Below, one piece after another: positions 3,772 through 14,718 of a stretch of DNA of 37,525 bases (positions within the stretch are counted from its first letter, which is position 1; every line of letters begins with the position of its first letter). A program made the translations under genes and the position numbers. The notes beneath the pieces are model-generated. The model did no database searches and was not told the DNA's origin. It saw only the letters and a program-made list of their open reading frames with translations. Origin of the DNA: Pseudobdellovibrionaceae bacterium (GTDB taxonomy: Bacteria; Bdellovibrionota; Bdellovibrionia; Bdellovibrionales; Bdellovibrionaceae); contig JACMMZ010000088.1 of NCBI GenBank assembly GCA_014378775.1, positions 1 through 37,525 of the forward strand, in the 5' to 3' direction.

Positions 3772-5562
3772 CTAGTCTTTTTTAAGACCCTTAAGCTGAT
3801 CACCGAACATATCACCGAAGCTTGTTTTTGCTGTTGTAGCTGCTTTTTTCACGTAATCATCGACATTGGCTTTTTGATCACGAAGCGTAATCAACTTCGC
3901 TGATAATCCTACTTTTCGAGCATCTTTGTCGATGCTGATAACTTCGGCCTTAATTTTACCGCCCACTTTGATAAAATCTTCAACCGTTGTGATTTTATCA
4001 ACAGTTAATTCAGAAATATGAATGAGTCCTTCGATATCACTTTCGAGTTCTACAAAAGCTCCGAAATCAACTGTCTTAGTCACTTTGACTTCGTGTTGAG
4101 TTCCGATTCCGTATTTAGTTTCAATTTGTGACCAAGGATCAGATTCTAATTGTTTAACCCCTAAAGAGAAACGTTCATTTTCAGTGTCTACACCTAAAAC
4201 AACCGCGCGAACTTTCGCACCTTTAGCAAACATTTCAGAAGGATGATTCACACGTTTCGTCCATGAGAAATCAGAGATATGAACTAAACCGTCAATACCG
4301 TCTTCGATTCCGATGAATACACCGAAATCAGTGATCGATTTAACTTCACCTTCAATGATCGTTCCTGGAGGGTAAGATTCTTTCATCTCAACCCAAGGAT
4401 TTGTTTGAAGCTGTTTCATACCTAAGCTGATTTTTCTGTTTTCAAAATCAATGGCGATAACTTGTACGTCAACTTCTTGATCGACTTGTACGATTTGATT
4501 CGCGTGCTTGACACGTTTTGTCCAAGACATTTCAGAAACGTGAATAAGTCCTTCGACTCCGTTGCCTAATTCAACAAACGCTCCGTATTCAGCTAAAGAT
4601 ACAACTTTACCTTTAGCTTTAGAACCAATTGGGAACTGAGACTGAACTGCTGCCCATGGGTCGTCAGTTAATTGCTTCATTCCTAATGATACGCGTTCTT
4701 TTTCAGTGTCGTACTTAAGAATTTTAACGTTGATTTCCGCACCGACTGAAATGACTTCAGAAGGATGCTTTATGCGCCCCCAGCTCATGTCAGTGATATG
4801 TAGTAATCCGTCAATACCACCTAAATCGATGAATGCTCCGTAATCAGTGATATTCTTAACAAGACCAACAACCGTTGCGCCTTCTTTCATGGTATCAGCT
4901 GTTTGAGCTTTGAGGTTATCACGTTCACTCTCAAGTATCGCGCGACGAGATAAAACAATGTTTCCACGTTTTTTATTGAATTTGATAACTTTAAATTTAT
5001 ATTTTTTACCCAAGTAAACATCCATATTACGTACCGGACGTAAATCGATTTGTGAACCTGGTAAGAATGCTTTAACTCCGATATCAACCGATAGTCCGCC
5101 TTTAACTTTAGCGATGACTGTTCCTTCGATAATTTCTTCGTTTTCAGCAGCTTTAGAAATATCGTTCCATGCACGTAACATATCGGCCTTATCTTTCGAT
5201 AACGCGATCATGCCGTTTTCATTTTCGATACGGTCAATCAGGACTTCGACGGTTTCACCTACATTAACTTGGCGAACGCCATCAACGATTCTAAATTCGT
5301 TGATCGGAATGAGACCTTCTGATTTGTAATTGATATCAACCAATACATAATCAGATTGGACTTCGACAACTTTACCGGTAACGACGTCACCGACACGGAA
5401 GTCTTGATCTAGAGTTGATGCCTGAAACATCGTTTCGAACTCACCCGTTTTATCTGCTTGTGCATTAAAACCTGGATTTGCGGCTATATTTGAGTCTTCA
5501 GCATCTAGCATCGCTAATACTGATAGTTTTTCTTTTTGGCTCTTGCTTATCGTTTTGTTCAT
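3772..5562 (-). CDS. rpsA: 30S ribosomal protein S1
   Basis: Repeated S1 domains, e.g. GLVKNITDYGAFIDLGGIDGLLHITDMSWGRIKHPSEVI and GKVVSLAEYGAFVELGNGVEGLIHVSEMSWTKRVKHANQIV. Gene order cmk-rpsA. Confidence 0.97.
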   Translation of the reverse strand: MNKTISKSQKEKLSVLAMLDAEDSNIAANPGFNAQADKTGEFETMFQASTLDQDFRVGDVVTGKVVEVQSDYVLVDINYKSEGLIPINEFRIVDGVRQVNVGETVEVLIDRIENENGMIALSKDKADMLRAWNDISKAAENEEIIEGTVIAKVKGGLSVDIGVKAFLPGSQIDLRPVRNMDVYLGKKYKFKVIKFNKKRGNIVLSRRAILESERDNLKAQTADTMKEGATVVGLVKNITDYGAFIDLGGIDGLLHITDMSWGRIKHPSEVISVGAEINVKILKYDTEKERVSLGMKQLTDDPWAAVQSQFPIGSKAKGKVVSLAEYGAFVELGNGVEGLIHVSEMSWTKRVKHANQIVQVDQEVDVQVIAIDFENRKISLGMKQLQTNPWVEMKESYPPGTIIEGEVKSITDFGVFIGIEDGIDGLVHISDFSWTKRVNHPSEMFAKGAKVRAVVLGVDTENERFSLGVKQLESDPWSQIETKYGIGTQHEVKVTKTVDFGAFVELESDIEGLIHISELTVDKITTVEDFIKVGGKIKAEVISIDKDARKVGLSAKLITLRDQKANVDDYVKKAATTAKTSFGDMFGDQLKGLKKD

Positions 5563-5676: not shown

Positions 5677-6354
5677 TTAACGTTGGACCTTCGGCCATGA
5701 GAAATCATAGGCCTTTTGGACGACTTGTTCTAAAGTGAGTTCACTGGTGTCGACCACTAAAGCTTCTGCAGGAACCTGCATAGGGGCGACTTTGCGTGTG
5801 GAATCTTGGATATCGCGTTGCTTTTGTTGGGCTTTTAAAACGTCTTTATCTAAACCTAATTCTTGAGCCCGACGAGAGGCGCGATCTTCCGAGCGCGCCG
5901 TTAAATAAATTTTGGCTTCGGCCAAAGGAAAAACCACCGTGCCACAGTCGCGACCTTCGGCAATGAGACCCTGATTTTCCACGGCACAATTTCTTTGATG
6001 GTCCAATAGTGACTGCCGCACTTCAGGAAAGTGGCTGATTTTGCTGGCGATATTTCCTACGTCTTCATGAGACGTTTTATCTGTGACGTCGACCCCGTCA
6101 AACCATACTTGAGTTTTTTCGGTGGTCATCACAATTTTCCAGGTTTTTGAAAAACAGAGCTCAGATAAAGCGATCGGGTTATCAAGGTCGGTTTTCATCT
6201 GTTGCGCCACATAGGCTAATCCGCGGTAAAAAGCCCCCGTTGAAACCCATGGGATACCTAATTTTTTAGAAAGCTCTCGACTCACTGACGATTTGCCAGA
6301 AGCCGCAGGTCCATCTATTGTAATTACGTAGCCCATTTTTTCTACCCACTTCAT
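5677..6354 (-). CDS. cmk: Cytidylate kinase
   Basis: YVITIDGPAASGKSSVSRELSKKLG...STGAFYRGLAY; GRDCGTVVFPLAEAKIYLTARSEDRASRR. Confidence 0.95.
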   Translation of the reverse strand: MKWVEKMGYVITIDGPAASGKSSVSRELSKKLGIPWVSTGAFYRGLAYVAQQMKTDLDNPIALSELCFSKTWKIVMTTEKTQVWFDGVDVTDKTSHEDVGNIASKISHFPEVRQSLLDHQRNCAVENQGLIAEGRDCGTVVFPLAEAKIYLTARSEDRASRRAQELGLDKDVLKAQQKQRDIQDSTRKVAPMQVPAEALVVDTSELTLEQVVQKAYDFSWPKVQR

Positions 6355-6367
6355 TTAAAACCACACG

Positions 6368-7489
6368 CTAACTGATTTCAGGAATCTCAGCTAGCATTTT
6401 CTCGATTGCTTCGATGGCTTTTTTATTTTCAAATGCTTTACCCACAGTCATTCTGAGATAATTTGGAAAACCGTAGTTAGCAACAGGTCTAAGAATAATC
6501 CCTTTTTTAAGCAAGTTCACAAAACAGGTTTGAGCGTTACGTTTAGTATCAAATAAAATAAAATTTCCGTCTGATTTATAAAAAGGAAGATTTAAACGCG
6601 TCAACTCGCTGTAAAAATAATCCAAACCTTCCCAAGTTATTTTCTGCGATTCGGCCCTGTAAGCGTCATCGTCTAAAGCCGCAACCGCGGCGATTTGAGC
6701 CAAATCATTCACGTTAAATGGATTGCGCACCCGATTATAGAATTCGAGCACATATTCCGGCGCTAAAAGAACGCCCAGTCTTAATCCAGCCATTCCATAA
6801 ACTTTTGAAAATGTTTTGAGAACTAAAACATTGGTGTATTTTTGATAAAACTGAGCCGCCGCTTTAAATTCGGGATTTCGCACGTATTCTGTGTACGCTT
6901 CATCAAAAACCAAGAGCACATCGTCGCGATTTCCTAAACGGACCAAAAAATCATCTAATTCAGAGCCTCCGACAGAAGTCCCCGTGGGGTTGTTAGGATT
7001 CGGAATGAAAATGAGACGAATCTTAGCGCTGGGATTTCGGAAAAAGTGATCAGCAAAACCTTTCAGGTCCATGGTTAGATCCGGCCTCAAATCTACCGTA
7101 CGAACTTTAACTCGTGCCGCTTGAGCGCAAACTTGATAAGCGACGAAAGCCGCTTGCGACGTCAGGACAGCGTCGCCGGGTTCGCAAAAAATTCGAATCA
7201 ATAAATCAATAATTTCATTGGAACCGTTTCCTACACCGACTTGCGTCGTCGGCACATTCCATTTTTCTGAAATTTTTTGAATAAGATCATGACAAGAAGG
7301 ATCCGGATAAAGATGTTGCTGATCTAAAGCATTCTTAATCGCCGTGATGACTTGAGGACTAGGCCCCAAAGGATTCTCATTGCTGGCGAGTTTATAAACT
7401 TCGGTTAAACCATACTCTCGTTTTGTTTCAGCAATCGGTTTACCTGTTTTATAGGGAACTAAATTTAATATCTCCGCAGACACTTTCAT
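6368..7489 (-). CDS. hisC: Histidinol-phosphate aminotransferase
   Basis: KLASNENPLGPSP; NPNNPTGT; VFDEAYTEY; LKTFSKVYGMAGLRLG (PLP lysine region); NYLRMTVG. Confidence 0.92.
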   Translation of the reverse strand: MKVSAEILNLVPYKTGKPIAETKREYGLTEVYKLASNENPLGPSPQVITAIKNALDQQHLYPDPSCHDLIQKISEKWNVPTTQVGVGNGSNEIIDLLIRIFCEPGDAVLTSQAAFVAYQVCAQAARVKVRTVDLRPDLTMDLKGFADHFFRNPSAKIRLIFIPNPNNPTGTSVGGSELDDFLVRLGNRDDVLLVFDEAYTEYVRNPEFKAAAQFYQKYTNVLVLKTFSKVYGMAGLRLGVLLAPEYVLEFYNRVRNPFNVNDLAQIAAVAALDDDAYRAESQKITWEGLDYFYSELTRLNLPFYKSDGNFILFDTKRNAQTCFVNLLKKGIILRPVANYGFPNYLRMTVGKAFENKKAIEAIEKMLAEIPEIS

Positions 7490-7491
7490 GT

Positions 7492-7520
7492 TTGACCTTT
7501 TTCTTTTACGACTTTACAAT
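7492..7520 (+). promoter_or_regulatory. Candidate sigma70-type promoter for the HyuA/HyuB-like pair
   Basis: TTGACC-N17-TACAAT in the hisC/hyuA-like divergent gap; -10 ends 13 bp before ATG at 7534. Confidence 0.6.
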
Positions 7521-7533
7521 TTCCCAACTTATT

Positions 7534-8862
7534 ATGACGGACAACCAGACTCAAGCAAATTTAGCTCTATTTATTGGTGAAACTTACTGCGAGATCGAAG
7601 TCCAAAATCTGGACCACCAAATTATTTTTTCCAAAGAAATTTTTCTGCCTCAAATTACCCTCAAAAACGCGCTCCAAACAACGGCGGCCGAAGTTTTGAA
7701 GTTAGGCTGCACCATTCAAAATGTTTACACCGTTTGCCGCTACCTAGAAAGACTGAAAAACTTTCGATTAGGTGGAAGCGTCATTCAAGTAACCCACAAG
7801 GGTTTGGAAAATAATTACATGCTGGAAAACACCGGGCGCTTTTCGTTAGCGGCTTCATCACTGATCATCGCTATCGATGCTCAGGCTAACATGACCGATC
7901 TTTCAGAATACCTAAGCACTGAATTTGATCGCACCCGCAAAATCAATCCGGAAGCAAACAAAGTAGTCATGAATCTTGATCCAAAGCAAATATCCGTCGC
8001 AAAAAATAAAATGATCCAAAAATTCTTTACTGAAAAAAACTTCAAACTTTTTTTTAATTCAACGCCTTACGATCTGAATTCGATTCGCCAAGTTCTGCTT
8101 AACGCGGGAACCGAAGGGACAAAAGAGGAATTAACTAAAGAGATCCAAGACGCTTTTCCGGCGGCTGAAATATTATTTTGGTCTCAGGATCGATTTTTAA
8201 CTGAGATCGAAAATTATCAACTGTATTTTAGTGCGGATGACTTTCTCGGATCGACGATTTTCGCAGACAAAAACAGTTCAGTCGATAAGGTGATCCATTT
8301 AGATATTGAAAATTGGATGGTGCTTGAGAAATCGCATCAATCCTGCTGGGACAGTCCCTGGGGGAAAATACAACGGTCTCATTTTCGAAATACCCCACTA
8401 TCACTTCACCCGCTGACAGAAATACTCATCGATGAAAATGCCTTTCTTCAGTTTTCAAAAATGCCGGCTCCTAGCGAACCGGGACCGATGACGGCTGGTC
8501 GCGGTGTGAAATCTCTGATCTTAGACGTGTTCTTTGCTGATTTGAAAAATCAGGCTTTATTGAACCGGTTATTTCCGGCTTTGCAAAACGCCAACATTGA
8601 AAAAAAAATACAATCCCAATTTAAAGTTTTAGAACATGGTCAAAAAACGGAGAGTAAAACATTGAATCAATCTGATATTAAAGAATTTATCCAGGAATTG
8701 ATTCACTTCGACATCAACCGCCTCGGCTGCAGTGATGAAAATTCGCTCTGTACCGGTAATATGTCATTTTTAAAAAAAGAGGGATCCAAAAAATCAAACC
8801 ATTTGAAACATTTTAGATGGACCGAAGAAATTTTTAAAAAAGTGGCTGAGGTGAAAACGTGA
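7534..8862 (+). CDS. Divergent hydantoinase/oxoprolinase subunit A (HyuA)-like protein
   Basis: MTDNQTQANLALFIGETYCEIEV... with APSEPGPMTAGRGVKSLILDVFFADL, matching the HyuA 'DPGPxxYGRGGxxPTVTDANLVLG' region. Immediately followed by a HyuB-like gene. The N-terminal GxDxGGTxTD-type nucleotide loop is not visible. The ORF-track start at 7423 lies inside hisC, so ATG 7534 is preferred. Confidence 0.6.
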   Translation: MTDNQTQANLALFIGETYCEIEVQNLDHQIIFSKEIFLPQITLKNALQTTAAEVLKLGCTIQNVYTVCRYLERLKNFRLGGSVIQVTHKGLENNYMLENTGRFSLAASSLIIAIDAQANMTDLSEYLSTEFDRTRKINPEANKVVMNLDPKQISVAKNKMIQKFFTEKNFKLFFNSTPYDLNSIRQVLLNAGTEGTKEELTKEIQDAFPAAEILFWSQDRFLTEIENYQLYFSADDFLGSTIFADKNSSVDKVIHLDIENWMVLEKSHQSCWDSPWGKIQRSHFRNTPLSLHPLTEILIDENAFLQFSKMPAPSEPGPMTAGRGVKSLILDVFFADLKNQALLNRLFPALQNANIEKKIQSQFKVLEHGQKTESKTLNQSDIKEFIQELIHFDINRLGCSDENSLCTGNMSFLKKEGSKKSNHLKHFRWTEEIFKKVAEVKT

Positions 8863-10100
8863 TTTCACATTTAGAGTCTCATAAATTCGGATCGATCATC
8901 AGTCACTTTAACAATGCCTCGATTGTAAACAGCAAAGGCGAACTTCTTTTTTCAAAAGATGCGGATCCGTTTAAAACCACCACCAGTCGTTTAGTTTTAT
9001 TTCAAATTGCGAAAAAATACCTTTCTCCCAGTACTGGTGACATCATTATCTCCAATGATCCTGAAAACGGCGGAACGTCTCTATCGCGTATTTATTTTAT
9101 AAGTTGCCTAAGTCTCAATTTATTTCTGATTTGGGATGCTGAATTTTATCCTATCGATTTTAAGATTCCGCTATCTCCATTTGTGGAAAATGGAAAAATA
9201 AGCCCCTTTATGAAAACGGCCTTGATTGAATCGCAGCCGAACAAAGAACACTACTCTGCCTTTTTTGAGACGGAAATTGGTAAATTCAATACGGTTAATA
9301 AATTCAAGGAATTCATTCGCGAAGCTTCTGGGGAAGACTTTCAAAAGCAGTGGTTTATGGTTTGCAAAAATATTTTCATCAATCATTTTGAAGCCAAAGC
9401 TTTCGGGCAGAGCGAGCTCAGTTATAAATACAAAACAGATCATCTTTTGAAACTAAGAACCGAAGTAGATGAAAAACAAAATCAGCGCTTCTTTAAAGTC
9501 GATTTTTCGGGATCCAGCCTGGCCAAACCAGGGCCCGCACAAATTTCTTGCGCATCACACGTCATCGAGAGTGGTCTCATTATCGAGTTTAGTAAGTATT
9601 ATGCTTTAGAAAAGTATTTATCTCAGCCCATCTTAGATCACGTAAAGCTCATCTTGCCGCCGAAGTCTATTGTGAGTAATGCTCACAAGGCGGGTGAATT
9701 TAATTTCGAACTTCAAAAAATGGCCCGTCAGATGATGAAATTTAATTTGACGCAAATTAATGCTCAAACTAAAAAAAATGACAAGAAATTTTCTCTGTAT
9801 TCAACCCACCTGTTGCAAATGACATCCGGTACGGAAACAAACTTATTCTTTTTATCCAATTCGCGAATTCAATTTGAAAATTTGAATTCGTTTCATCAAA
9901 AAATTCTCCAAAACACCGATGGCGAATATAAAGCGTGCTTGGTTTATAACTCCGATAAACCATTAACGATTCGGGTAAGTGGAATTTCTTCAGACGAAGA
10001 TCACGCCAAACGTTGGCTCAAAATTAATAAAGCACCCGTCAGACATGGCACTTTCAATTTAAAAAAAGGTGACGAATTCATTTTGAATTGGAAAATTTAA
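8859..10100 (+). CDS. Divergent hydantoinase/oxoprolinase subunit B (HyuB)-like protein
   Basis: SPSTGDIIISNDPENGGTSLSRIYFIS resembles HyuB 'GDVFITNDPxxGGTHLPDI'. VDFSGSSLAKPGPAQISCASHVIESGLI resembles 'VDFSGTSPQxPGPxN'. Overlaps the upstream gene by 4 bp. Confidence 0.65.
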   Translation: MISHLESHKFGSIISHFNNASIVNSKGELLFSKDADPFKTTTSRLVLFQIAKKYLSPSTGDIIISNDPENGGTSLSRIYFISCLSLNLFLIWDAEFYPIDFKIPLSPFVENGKISPFMKTALIESQPNKEHYSAFFETEIGKFNTVNKFKEFIREASGEDFQKQWFMVCKNIFINHFEAKAFGQSELSYKYKTDHLLKLRTEVDEKQNQRFFKVDFSGSSLAKPGPAQISCASHVIESGLIIEFSKYYALEKYLSQPILDHVKLILPPKSIVSNAHKAGEFNFELQKMARQMMKFNLTQINAQTKKNDKKFSLYSTHLLQMTSGTETNLFFLSNSRIQFENLNSFHQKILQNTDGEYKACLVYNSDKPLTIRVSGISSDEDHAKRWLKINKAPVRHGTFNLKKGDEFILNWKI

Positions 10101-11306
10101 TTAGACCTGAGCGCCCGTTTTTTGAATGGCTTTACGAATTACTTCGATATGTTCGTGATCGATAGTTTCAATCACAAAATCGATTTTAGTTTGCTTCATC
10201 CCGAGATCGCTTCCGATGCGGTCATGGTGAACTTCTAGAATATTAGCTCGGTTATCGGCTAAAATCTGAGTGAGGCGGCTTAAACTACCAGGAATATCGG
10301 GTACAATCACGGAAAGCTCACACAACCGACCACGTTGAATTTGTCCGTGCTGAATCACCCCGGAAATCATATTTAGATCGACATTTCCACCGCAAACCAA
10401 AACGCAGGTTTTCGAACCCAATTTTAAATTTTTATGAGATAAAATTGCGGCCAATCCCACCGCGCCCGAACCTTCCGCCACTGTTTTTACCCTTTCGAGT
10501 AAAAAAACCATGGCTTCAGCGATTTGCCCTTCGGTCACCGTCACGATTTCGTCCACGTATTTTGATATGAAATCATCGTACATGATTTGACTGGGTTTCT
10601 TAATGGCGATGCCGTCCGCTAAAGTCGATATCGGATTTTGAATCATCTCAAATTTATGTTGATGAAAAAGTTGTGACATAGTGGAAACAGTTTCCGTTTG
10701 GGCCCCAATAATTTTAATTTTCGGGTTTATACTTTTTGCCGCGATCGCGATCCCACTGATTAAACCCCCGCCTCCAACCGGCACCACGATGCTGGTTAAA
10801 TCAGGAATTTGCTCGAGGACTTCTAGTCCAATCGTACCCTGACCGGCGATGACTTTTTCGTCTTCATAAGGGTGAACAAAAATGTAACCTTTCTCTTTGG
10901 CTAATTGAATCGAATAATCTTTAGCTTCGTCAAAACTTGTACCATAAAGTATAACGGTCGCGCCGTAATTTTTAGTTGCTTCAACTTTTGATAAAGGCGC
11001 ATTGATCGGCATTACAATTGTTGACTGCACACCGTGAATTTTTGAACTTAAGGCCACCCCTTGGGCGTGATTACCGGCTGAACAGGCAATGACACCACAT
11101 TTTTTCTCAGCTTCGGTCAGACTCAAAATTTTATTTGTGGCTCCTCTGATTTTAAAGCTTCCCGTACGCTGCGTATTTTCCAGTTTAAAAAATACTTCGC
11201 AGCCGACCAAAGCGGTTGCTGAACGAGAGTAATCACAAACGGTTAAATTGATACTGTCAGCTATATTCTGACGTGCATTTTGGATGTCTTGTAAGGTGAC
11301 TTTCAT
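10101..11306 (-). CDS. ilvA: Threonine ammonia-lyase (threonine dehydratase) with C-terminal ACT domain
   Basis: [21 protein letters not shown] (PLP Lys); [24 protein letters not shown]-terminal [31 protein letters not shown]. Confidence 0.9.
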
Positions 11307-11330: not shown

Positions 11331-11567
11331 CTACCAATACAAGCTGATTCCGAGAATTGGTGGGTATTCGGTTTTTAAAAAAGACTTCGGTGTTTGAGAT
11401 GTGCGAGTTCGATCTTGAACATCTGATGCGGTTTCCGCATTGTCCGAAGGATCGTTACAAAACATAAAAGGAGCCAGATATTTTCCGCAAGCCTCGCAGC
11501 GCTCGATTTTTTGAGTTTCCGATTCAGATGTTTTATTGCAAATATGGCAGCGGCGGATGTGAACCAT
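11331..11567 (-). CDS. Small zinc-ribbon-like protein
   Basis: MVHIRRCHICNKTSESETQKIERCEACGKYLAPFMFC: two CxxC knuckles. Preceded by a good promoter. Confidence 0.6.
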   Translation of the reverse strand: MVHIRRCHICNKTSESETQKIERCEACGKYLAPFMFCNDPSDNAETASDVQDRTRTSQTPKSFLKTEYPPILGISLYW

Positions 11568-11727: not shown

Positions 11728-12471
11728 TTACGAATCGAAATTGCAAATATCCAGAAAACTCGTCACCTCAAGCGAAGCTCCCCCAATAAGGAATCCATCA
11801 ACGTGATCGAGCGCTATCAGATCTTTCGCATTATCGGCTTTAACGCTGCCACCGTAAATTAATTGAAAGTTTTTAAAATTCATCGACGTCATTTTTTGGA
11901 AAAGTTCGGCGTGAACTTCTTTGACCTGATCAAGGCTTGCCACCTGGCCTGTGCCGATGGCCCAAACCGGTTCGTAGGCGACAACGATACGTTTACTCAA
12001 ATTAACGGCGGATAACGCTGCTTCTAATTGTTCAAAACAAACTTTCAGTGTTTCGTTTTTTTGGCGCTGCTCCAGGCTTTCTCCGATACAAAGAACCGGC
12101 AGTGTATCCAGACTTTGGCTGAGCAAAACTTTCTTATTTATCGAAGAATTTAATTCTGAGAAAATTTGACGACGTTCGCTGTGACCGATTAAACAAATGG
12201 TTGAACCGATAGACTGAGCAATGGCTAAAGAGTTTTCGCCAGTGAATGCGCCTTTGACTTCGATGTGAATTTGCTGCGGTCCGAACCGAACCGGTGATTT
12301 TTTTAAATTTTGAGACAGCTTATCCAGAGAAAAATTTTGCGGAAAAATAAAAGCTTCTTTAGTTTCAAAAAATTTCTCACTTGTTTTAGCCAAAAAATCC
12401 TGAGCAAACGCAGCGGCTTGATCAGGGGTTTTATTTAATTTCCAGTTCGCCGCAAAAATTTTTTTATTCAT
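11728..12471 (-). CDS. tpiA: Triosephosphate isomerase
   Basis: MNKKIFAANWKLNKTP; IGHSERRQIF; VVAYEPVWAIGTG; LIYGGSVKADNAKDL; DGFLIGGASL. Start at internal Met 12471 rather than 12537. Confidence 0.95.
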   Translation of the reverse strand: MNKKIFAANWKLNKTPDQAAAFAQDFLAKTSEKFFETKEAFIFPQNFSLDKLSQNLKKSPVRFGPQQIHIEVKGAFTGENSLAIAQSIGSTICLIGHSERRQIFSELNSSINKKVLLSQSLDTLPVLCIGESLEQRQKNETLKVCFEQLEAALSAVNLSKRIVVAYEPVWAIGTGQVASLDQVKEVHAELFQKMTSMNFKNFQLIYGGSVKADNAKDLIALDHVDGFLIGGASLEVTSFLDICNFDS

Positions 12472-12478
12472 TTGAAGC

Positions 12479-13717
12479 CTAAAATGTAGGGGTGCTGGTT
12501 GAAGATTCAGATTGTTTACGTTTACGTAAGACTTCAAGTCCCGGTAGTCTTTCCCCTTGAAGGTATTCGAGACTCGCCCCGCCTCCGGTAGAAATATGGG
12601 TCATCTTATCTGCAAATCCAGAAATTTCGGCTGCCGCCGCTGAATCCCCGCCGCCCACAATCATGGTACCTGGGTTTGCGGCCATCACTTCCGCAATTGC
12701 AAAAGTTCCCTTTGAAAATTCTGTTGTCTCAAACACTCCCATCGGTCCATTCCAAAAAACAGTTTTAGCTTCGGCTAAATATTTCTTATAAAGCTCAATG
12801 GTTTTTGGACCAATATCCAATCCGATTTCGTTTTCTTTAATTTGATGATTCGTTGTGACTCGGATATTTTTGGTGTCACCAAAGGCTTGGCTGGTAATGT
12901 GATCCACCGGTAATAGTAAAGTTTTACCTCGAGCTTCGATACGTTCAATCATTTCTTTGGCATATTTCAATTTATCTGCTTCGACTAATGACTTCCCAAC
13001 TTCCACGCCCTGAGCTTTTAAAAAAGTGTAGGCCATGGCTCCGCCAATAACAAAACCATCAACCACGTTGATCAGTTTTTCAATGACAGGAATTTTGTCG
13101 GATACTTTTGATCCACCAAGCACTGCGATGTACGGTTTTTGTGGCTTGTCGAATAAACCATCGAGCATTTTAATTTCTTTTTCGATCAGAAATCCGACGC
13201 CTTTTTCTTGCATCATTTCTGGTAAGGCCGAAATACTGGCATGGGCTCGGTGCGAAGCTCCGAACGCATCATTAATATAAATATCCGCGTAGGAAGTCCA
13301 CATGACGGCAAGCTCCGTGCTGTTTTCTACTTCACCTTGATCAAAGCGAAGATTTTCTAAACAGATAATCTGATTTTTCATCGGGCCGTAAAGAATATGT
13401 TTAACCCCTTCAGAATCAGGTTCTTCCATCAGAACTACTTCAAGATCAAGCAATTCACCCAATCTTTTTGCTACCGGCTCCATTGAATACTGACGATCAG
13501 CCGAAGTCTTCGGACGACCTAAATGAGACGCGATAATGATTTTCGCCCCTTTTTCGAAACAGTATTTAATGGTTGGAAGACTGGCCGTGATGCGCGTTTC
13601 ATCTGTGATATTTCCCTCTTTGTCCATTGGAACATTTAAATCTAATCTTAGAAATACTGTTTTACCTTTAAGTTCAAAATCCCGGACGGTTTTGATTCCT
13701 TTTAAACCATCAGACAT
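12479..13717 (-). CDS. pgk: Phosphoglycerate kinase
   Basis: VFLRLDLNVPMD; ASHLGRPK; NLRFDQGEVEN; AVLGGSKVSDKI; FWNGPMGVFE; GGGDSAAA; STGGGASLE. Confidence 0.97.
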   Translation of the reverse strand: MSDGLKGIKTVRDFELKGKTVFLRLDLNVPMDKEGNITDETRITASLPTIKYCFEKGAKIIIASHLGRPKTSADRQYSMEPVAKRLGELLDLEVVLMEEPDSEGVKHILYGPMKNQIICLENLRFDQGEVENSTELAVMWTSYADIYINDAFGASHRAHASISALPEMMQEKGVGFLIEKEIKMLDGLFDKPQKPYIAVLGGSKVSDKIPVIEKLINVVDGFVIGGAMAYTFLKAQGVEVGKSLVEADKLKYAKEMIERIEARGKTLLLPVDHITSQAFGDTKNIRVTTNHQIKENEIGLDIGPKTIELYKKYLAEAKTVFWNGPMGVFETTEFSKGTFAIAEVMAANPGTMIVGGGDSAAAAEISGFADKMTHISTGGGASLEYLQGERLPGLEVLRKRKQSESSTSTPTF

Positions 13718-14718
13718 TAGTTCTTCTCCATCATAAATAAAGCCATATCCACCATTCGACTTGAGAACCCAGTTTCATTATCGTACCAAGATAATACTTT
13801 AGCGGTTCTTTGACCCACCACCATGGTCGTTTTACTGTCGACGATGGATGATAATTTATTTCCGTTAAAATCTATACTAACTAATTCCTCTGTTTCAAAA
13901 CCAAGGACACCTTTAAGTTCACCTTGAGAGGCTTCTTTTAATGCCGCATTGATTGATGCGACCGACACATCTTTTTCGGTATTAAAAGTAAAATCAACCA
14001 AGCTGACATTCGGTGTTGGTACGCGGATCGATAATCCGTCAATTTTACCTTTGAGTTCTGGCAAAACTAAACCCACTGCTTTTGCGGCCCCGGTTGTTGT
14101 GGGAATCATCGATACTGCGGCCGAGCGAGCTCGACGCATATCTTTGTGAGCCGCATCTAATATTTTTTGATCATTGGTGTACGAATGAACCGTAAGCATT
14201 GTTCCGTTCACGATACCAAAAGATTTATGTAATACATGAGCCAACGGCGCTAAACAGTTCGTCGTGCACGAAGCATTAGATAAAAAAGTATGCTGTGCGG
14301 GATTGTATTGCTTATGATTAATTCCGTAAACAACCGTTATATCGACTCCGTCAGCGGGAGCCGAAACCATAACTTTTTTGGCTCCGGCCGTGATATGTTT
14401 TTGATAATCTTCTTTTCCTTTAAGCGCCCCGGTACATTCCATAACTAATTCAACGCCCCAAGCTTTCCACGGAATGTGTGCCGGATCTTTTTGTTTAGTT
14501 ACCGGAATTTTTTTTCCGTTAACGATGAGGTTTTCTCCGTCGTGAGTTACATCAGCTTTAAAAATTCCATGAGATGAATCATATTTTAATAAATGCACAA
14601 TTCCTTCTAAATCATCTAAAGAATTAATTCCTACGATATCTAACTGTTCAAAACCTTCGCGAAAAAATACGCGCCCGATGCGACCGAAACCATTAATTCC
14701 AACTTTCATTTTTCCCAC
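13717..14718 (-). CDS. gapA: Glyceraldehyde-3-phosphate dehydrogenase
   Basis: KVGINGFGRIGRVFFRE; SNASCTTNCLAPLAHVL; HSYTNDQ; SWYDNETGFSSRMVD. Confidence 0.97.
   Translation of the reverse strand: MGKMKVGINGFGRIGRVFFREGFEQLDIVGINSLDDLEGIVHLLKYDSSHGIFKADVTHDGENLIVNGKKIPVTKQKDPAHIPWKAWGVELVMECTGALKGKEDYQKHITAGAKKVMVSAPADGVDITVVYGINHKQYNPAQHTFLSNASCTTNCLAPLAHVLHKSFGIVNGTMLTVHSYTNDQKILDAAHKDMRRARSAAVSMIPTTTGAAKAVGLVLPELKGKIDGLSIRVPTPNVSLVDFTFNTEKDVSVASINAALKEASQGELKGVLGFETEELVSIDFNGNKLSSIVDSKTTMVVGQRTAKVLSWYDNETGFSSRMVDMALFMMEKN

Follow-up and report, generated by a model that had tools for sequence, protein, structure and literature searches.

A probable pseudoenzyme pair derived from HyuA/HyuB and retained at a fixed chromosomal site across the Bdellovibrionales

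Two overlapping genes, A and B, in the window (the whole stretch of 37,525 nucleotides that was analyzed) probably encode an ancient, vertically inherited pseudoenzyme that descends from the ATP-dependent, ring-opening hydantoinases of the HyuA/HyuB family and is likely to form a heteromer with a changed role. By sequence, the pair combines the features by which a pseudoenzyme is recognized, i.e., descent from an enzyme family, loss of the residues needed for catalysis, and selective retention. Since it sits at the same chromosomal spot throughout this order of Bdellovibrio-like predators and their relatives and is kept by selection despite its lost sites, it probably does a different job. The genes and their surroundings are as follows.

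7534 to 8862, plus strand: gene A, degenerate HyuA-like protein of 442 aa (ATG at 7534, stop at 8862, frame intact)
8859 to 10100, plus strand: gene B, degenerate HyuB-like protein of 413 aa (GTG at 8859, stop at 10100, frame intact)
8859 to 8862, plus strand: 4-bp overlap of the A stop and the B start, read from the sequence, with the same -3 offset in many congeners
6368 to 7489, minus strand: hisC-type aminotransferase gene, divergent neighbor of A, conserved order-wide
5677 to 6354, minus strand: cmk-type kinase gene, conserved neighbor
3772 to 5562, minus strand: rpsA (S1 domains), conserved neighbor
10101 to 11306, minus strand: ilvA-type threonine dehydratase gene, convergent neighbor of B, conserved order-wide
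7492 to 7520, plus strand: promoter-like TTGACC-17-TACAAT separating the hisC-type gene from A, a weak candidate (1 found versus 0.7 expected in shuffles)

A sequence-only reading of this DNA had described two intact genes of 442 and 413 aa with a 4-bp overlap; we confirmed both frames, and the HyuA and HyuB signature peptides that it quoted are present in A and B. The A frame is already open upstream from a TTG at 7423, but the ATG at 7534 is the preferred start because the congeners align from there. The overlap likely couples the translation of the two genes. The gap between A and the divergent hisC-type gene measures 44 bp, and the TTGACC of the promoter-like element in it is kept in three congeners, although this conservation is ambiguous because the element overlaps the hisC ribosome-binding region. 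The end of B abuts that of the convergent ilvA-type gene (10100/10101). Protein A retains an ASKHA-like N-terminal part and the EPGP-GRG motif without the DxGGTxTD motifs and the C-terminal domains, and protein B retains the NDP-GG, IPP, and DFSG motifs without the metal ligands. Also on the minus strand, a 78-aa open reading frame (ORF) with paired CxxC motifs (11331 to 11567), resembling a small zinc-ribbon protein, adjoins the ilvA-type gene, which is also flanked by three consecutive genes (11728 to 14718) for triosephosphate isomerase, phosphoglycerate kinase, and glyceraldehyde-3-phosphate dehydrogenase, a cluster also seen at the corresponding site in congeners.

The window B protein matched Pfam Hydantoinase_B at 27.5 bits (E = 1.4e-6), above the curated cutoff of 26.8. 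Window A alone gave no match in direct single-sequence searches of Pfam, NCBIfam, or PDB, and its homology was instead established with aligned relatives. Among the 34 aligned members, 18 matched Hydant_A_N (best, 2.4e-19) and all 34 matched Hydantoinase_B (E up to 1). Family profiles made from the alignments of these 34 relatives, one for A and one for B, were searched against PDB, and the best match of both was N-methylhydantoinase (PDB 7hk5, 9h03; E for 7hk5, 1.3e-15 with A and 7.5e-21 with B). The caprolactamase subunits were also matched, CapA (6yra_A) by the A profile at 2.7e-13 and CapB by the B profile at 1.1e-12, as were an acetophenone carboxylase subunit (3.7e-10) and an acetone carboxylase subunit (5e-5) by the A profile.

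In profile-profile comparisons, the genus-level A alignment reached canonical HyuA directly with a probability of just 0.6%, but it matched the A family of the wider order at 100% (E = 3e-51), which in turn matched canonical HyuA at 99.8% (E = 1.5e-27). For B against canonical HyuB, the direct comparison gave 95.4% and that of the family 100%. As crossed controls, A against canonical B gave 1.5% and B against canonical A gave 38.6%, the latter over 57 residues at the extreme end of the canonical A set, a region that runs into the B part in fused proteins. The pair is thus a highly diverged HyuA/HyuB whose descent can be traced by way of intermediate sequences, and the kinship originally proposed for it was borne out for both subunits with the help of the relatives. 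A search of PHROGs returned nothing meaningful for the pair, which argues against a phage origin.

The closest known systems differ from the pair in several respects. CapAB, the ATP-dependent caprolactamase of Pseudomonas jessenii (PDB 6yra), has subunits homologous to A and B by profile, but these are 696 and 581 aa long, compared with 442 and 413 aa here, where A has no C-terminal domains. The N-methylhydantoinase 7hk5 is a single chain of 1288 residues, whereas A and B are separate, short proteins that lack the motif residues of that enzyme. The acetophenone and acetone carboxylases (ApcABCD and AcxABC) have A-type subunits related to A by profile; unlike in these systems, no third subunit gene adjoins the pair, and the ATP and metal residues are lost. 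One genome of the order (G042) carries, on contig 52 (L110), an ordinary HyuA/HyuB with the gene order A then B, as in the pair, and with intact DxGGTxTD motifs. Its proteins of 706 and 586 aa fit the canonical lengths that the sequence-only reading had given. The same genome has the degenerate pair at a different location, the ancestral site, on contig 13 (L077).

Important for the activity of the caprolactamase are the ATP-site residues D11 and D295 of CapA and the metal-site residues D41, H99, D101 or D102, and H124 of CapB (PMC8453981; its abstract and text disagree on D101 versus D102), and D18, T15, K32, and T299 of CapA are proposed nucleotide contacts (PMC8453981). We compared these positions between 47 A/B pairs from the lineage and six canonical A and B sequences. 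With a mapping that relies on alignment at 14 to 24% identity outside the genus, D11 was found in 2 of the 47 A proteins, and D295 in 2 different ones. No protein retained T299 or D302, the second canonical ATP-site motif, DMGGTSTD, was lost as well, and another sequence stood in place of the GAGGGS glycine loop. The N-terminal GxDxGGTxTD motif, which A had been said to lack, is indeed lost, but it has been overwritten in place rather than removed, as the canonical IGIDVGGTFTD aligns with LALFIGETYCE. Remnants of the first phosphate loop persist (Gly13 in 41/47, Ser or Thr at position 15 in 41/47, and an acidic residue at position 18 in 37/47), and A may have some nucleotide or Mg binding left, given the Ser/Thr at 15 and the acid at 18.

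The metal site of B has fared no better. At the CapB positions, which we infer in the lineage from motif and spacing, H99 was found in 0/47 proteins, D102 in 5/47, and H124 in at most one, and the segment carrying D41 was deleted. The inspection of active-site residues that had been suggested for this pair thus found both the ATP and the metal residues missing in nearly all 47 pairs, D11 and D295 of CapA and D41, H99, D102, and H124 of CapB among them. Nearly all A proteins end 112 to 153 residues past the PGP motif, compared with 348 in the canonical copy, and their C-terminal domains are therefore gone; in the window genus, B has further lost its glycine-rich C terminus as well as a stretch that followed the old metal motif. 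A single relict Asp was seen in four A proteins, D295 in L065 and L068 and D11 in L074 and L122, and these residues appear to be traces of stepwise erosion. A true hydantoinase or oxoprolinase of the HyuAB type, merely divergent and still dependent on ATP and metal, would agree with the above-cutoff Hydantoinase_B match and with the matches of the family profiles to active enzymes, but such an enzyme is very improbable, as almost every member lacks all four metal ligands and, in the ATP site, the key Asp and Thr residues.

The old catalytic positions were not simply released, as new conserved residues are found there. The T299 position of A holds Glu in 42 and Asp in 4 of the 47 proteins, and an acidic side chain at this place should repel phosphate. 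In the alignment of 34 relatives, G277, P293, D331, and G408 of A are invariant, and E259, W272, S274, W276, P316-G317-P318, and G322-R323 are nearly so. The lineage signatures in A include W-x-S-P-W-G and, outside the genus, a Q-P-T that replaces the glycine loop. One tentative view is that the pair forms a Bdellovibrionales-specific complex on a hydantoinase scaffold, with both emptied sites refitted for a new activity. That activity, on an equally speculative footing, could be ligand sensing or an ATP- and metal-independent chemistry unlike that of any HyuAB relative seen. A somewhat different proposal is a neofunctionalized enzyme that is still active, working with the new residues (Glu and W-x-S-P-W-G) without the old metal, or with altered ATP binding. 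The conservation of the new residues in the old nucleotide cleft, the partly kept first phosphate loop, and the strong purifying selection described below are consistent with it, but we consider it rather unlikely, as both classical active sites are lost and the remaining residues point to no known enzyme chemistry.

The search for the pair covered genomes of the same phylum. Within the genus, both A and B were present in all 14 sampled genomes, that of the window included, with the contig of G007 ending within A. Across the order, the A profile matched in 84 of 141 genomes (65/103 of the high-quality ones and 30/66 genera), counts that may include a few hits to canonical HyuA (G042, for example, carries both types). 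In all intact and uncut loci of the family that were read, a same-strand HyuB-like ORF came directly after A, often with a 4-bp overlap. The site is fixed order-wide: an ilvA-type gene comes first, B and A follow, encoded on the other strand, and hisC, cmk, and rpsA come next; hisC is divergent from A and usually lies less than about 120 bp away. Short A/B-like genes were also found in two genomes from another family of the same class, and in one of these two, G277 (locus L122), they lie between ilvA and cmk-rpsA. In the rest of the phylum, the sampled matches were mostly ordinary fused HyuAB with frames of 1074 to 1304 aa, whose motifs were intact in the five that were read. The degeneration belongs to an order-wide lineage and is not peculiar to the window genome or its genus. 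Accordingly, the earlier idea of a retained pseudoenzyme pair held with regard to retention, the loss of catalytic residues, and the lack of decay, with the changed function as a probable part of it, but not as a local event. In G010, two different copies were seen on contigs 129 (L060) and 172 (L059), each beside a hisC-type gene, possibly because two strains were binned together and not because of a duplication.

In ten genomes that lack the pair, hisC neighbors ilvA in the same orientation, and nine of the ten have no ORF of at least 100 aa in between. As the pairless genomes occur within the same family and the pair occupies the same site in the wider class, its absence is most readily explained by repeated clean loss, and these losses indicate that many relatives can do without it. 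They also bear on the idea that the pair regulates its neighbors, modulating HisC, IlvA, or local amino acid pathways. The order-wide synteny with the divergent hisC and with ilvA would fit this idea; however, both genes are still present in genomes that have lost the pair, and the housekeeping synteny of this neighborhood would be conserved anyway, making such regulation improbable. We also considered whether the pair is an accessory of an active paralog. This was rejected because canonical Hydantoinase_A was found in only 1 of 60 relatives (G042) and not in the window genome.

Between L049 and L050, the closest usable congener pair, the dN/dS ratio was 0.057 for A and 0.045 for B, similar to those of the neighboring hisC (0.055), cmk (0.060), and ilvA (0.094); L049/L050 was used for the estimate, as synonymous-site saturation precludes one between the window and most congeners. 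The ratios point to strong purifying selection on A and B, like that on their housekeeping neighbors. Over longer distances, A and B evolved about 2.5 times faster than the neighbors (tree lengths of 25.1 and 21.1 versus 8.9). The A and B distances remain correlated once the shared phylogeny is accounted for (partial r = 0.70), as expected for partners, though this is not proof of partnership.

The fast long-distance evolution might suggest a decaying pseudogene pair whose frames are intact by chance, and one such case does exist: G003 carries on contig 24 (143280 to 144744; L053), away from the ilvA/hisC site, a second, decayed copy with a 168-aa frame of the C-terminal part of A and pieces of B with internal stops, which exemplifies a real pseudogene of the A/B pair. 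We nevertheless regard decay of the main copy as extremely improbable and rejected it on the grounds of selection and synteny, since the dN/dS ratio is about 0.05 in the closest usable congeners and the frames are open throughout the genus, save at the contig end, and across the order. The sequence-only reading, which had named dN/dS and pseudogenized orthologs among its checks, was therefore right to set decay aside.

AlphaFold2 models of A and B, built with alignments of the window, L001, and L002 only, reached pLDDT values of 45 and 40, and Foldseek searches with these low-pLDDT models gave no match at an E value of 0.001 or better. The top match of the A model, at a nonsignificant E of 0.004, was N-methylhydantoinase. 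We draw no structural conclusion from these models; judged by sequence, A and B may share the fold of HyuA and HyuB. Our search of a full-text literature collection found no report of this A/B pair and nothing relevant on a hydantoinase or oxoprolinase in Bdellovibrio; the main text of a Bdellovibrio Tn-seq paper (PMC6561027) contains no mention of hydantoin, hydantoinase, or oxoprolinase.

For the pseudoenzyme that we favor, a mechanism may be proposed in which A and B would still form a CapAB-like heteromer. Such a heteromer could neither use ATP to phosphorylate lactams or amides nor keep the metal in the second active site. Its emptied clefts, refitted with Glu in place of Thr299, W-x-S-P-W-G, and Q-P-T, might instead bind another ligand or partner. 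As the weakest step of the proposal, the complex could then act as a binding or regulatory module.

An apparent orthologous pair is present in G123, which we take to be Bdellovibrio bacteriovorus HD100, with A on the minus strand at about 1,005,500 to 1,006,800 and B next to it, so that a knockout is feasible. Any hydantoinase or oxoprolinase label from automatic annotation would misstate the chemistry of the pair. With the catalytic residues of both subunits of an ATP-driven enzyme lost and the genes yet kept at one site, the pair would represent a clean case of scaffold reuse.
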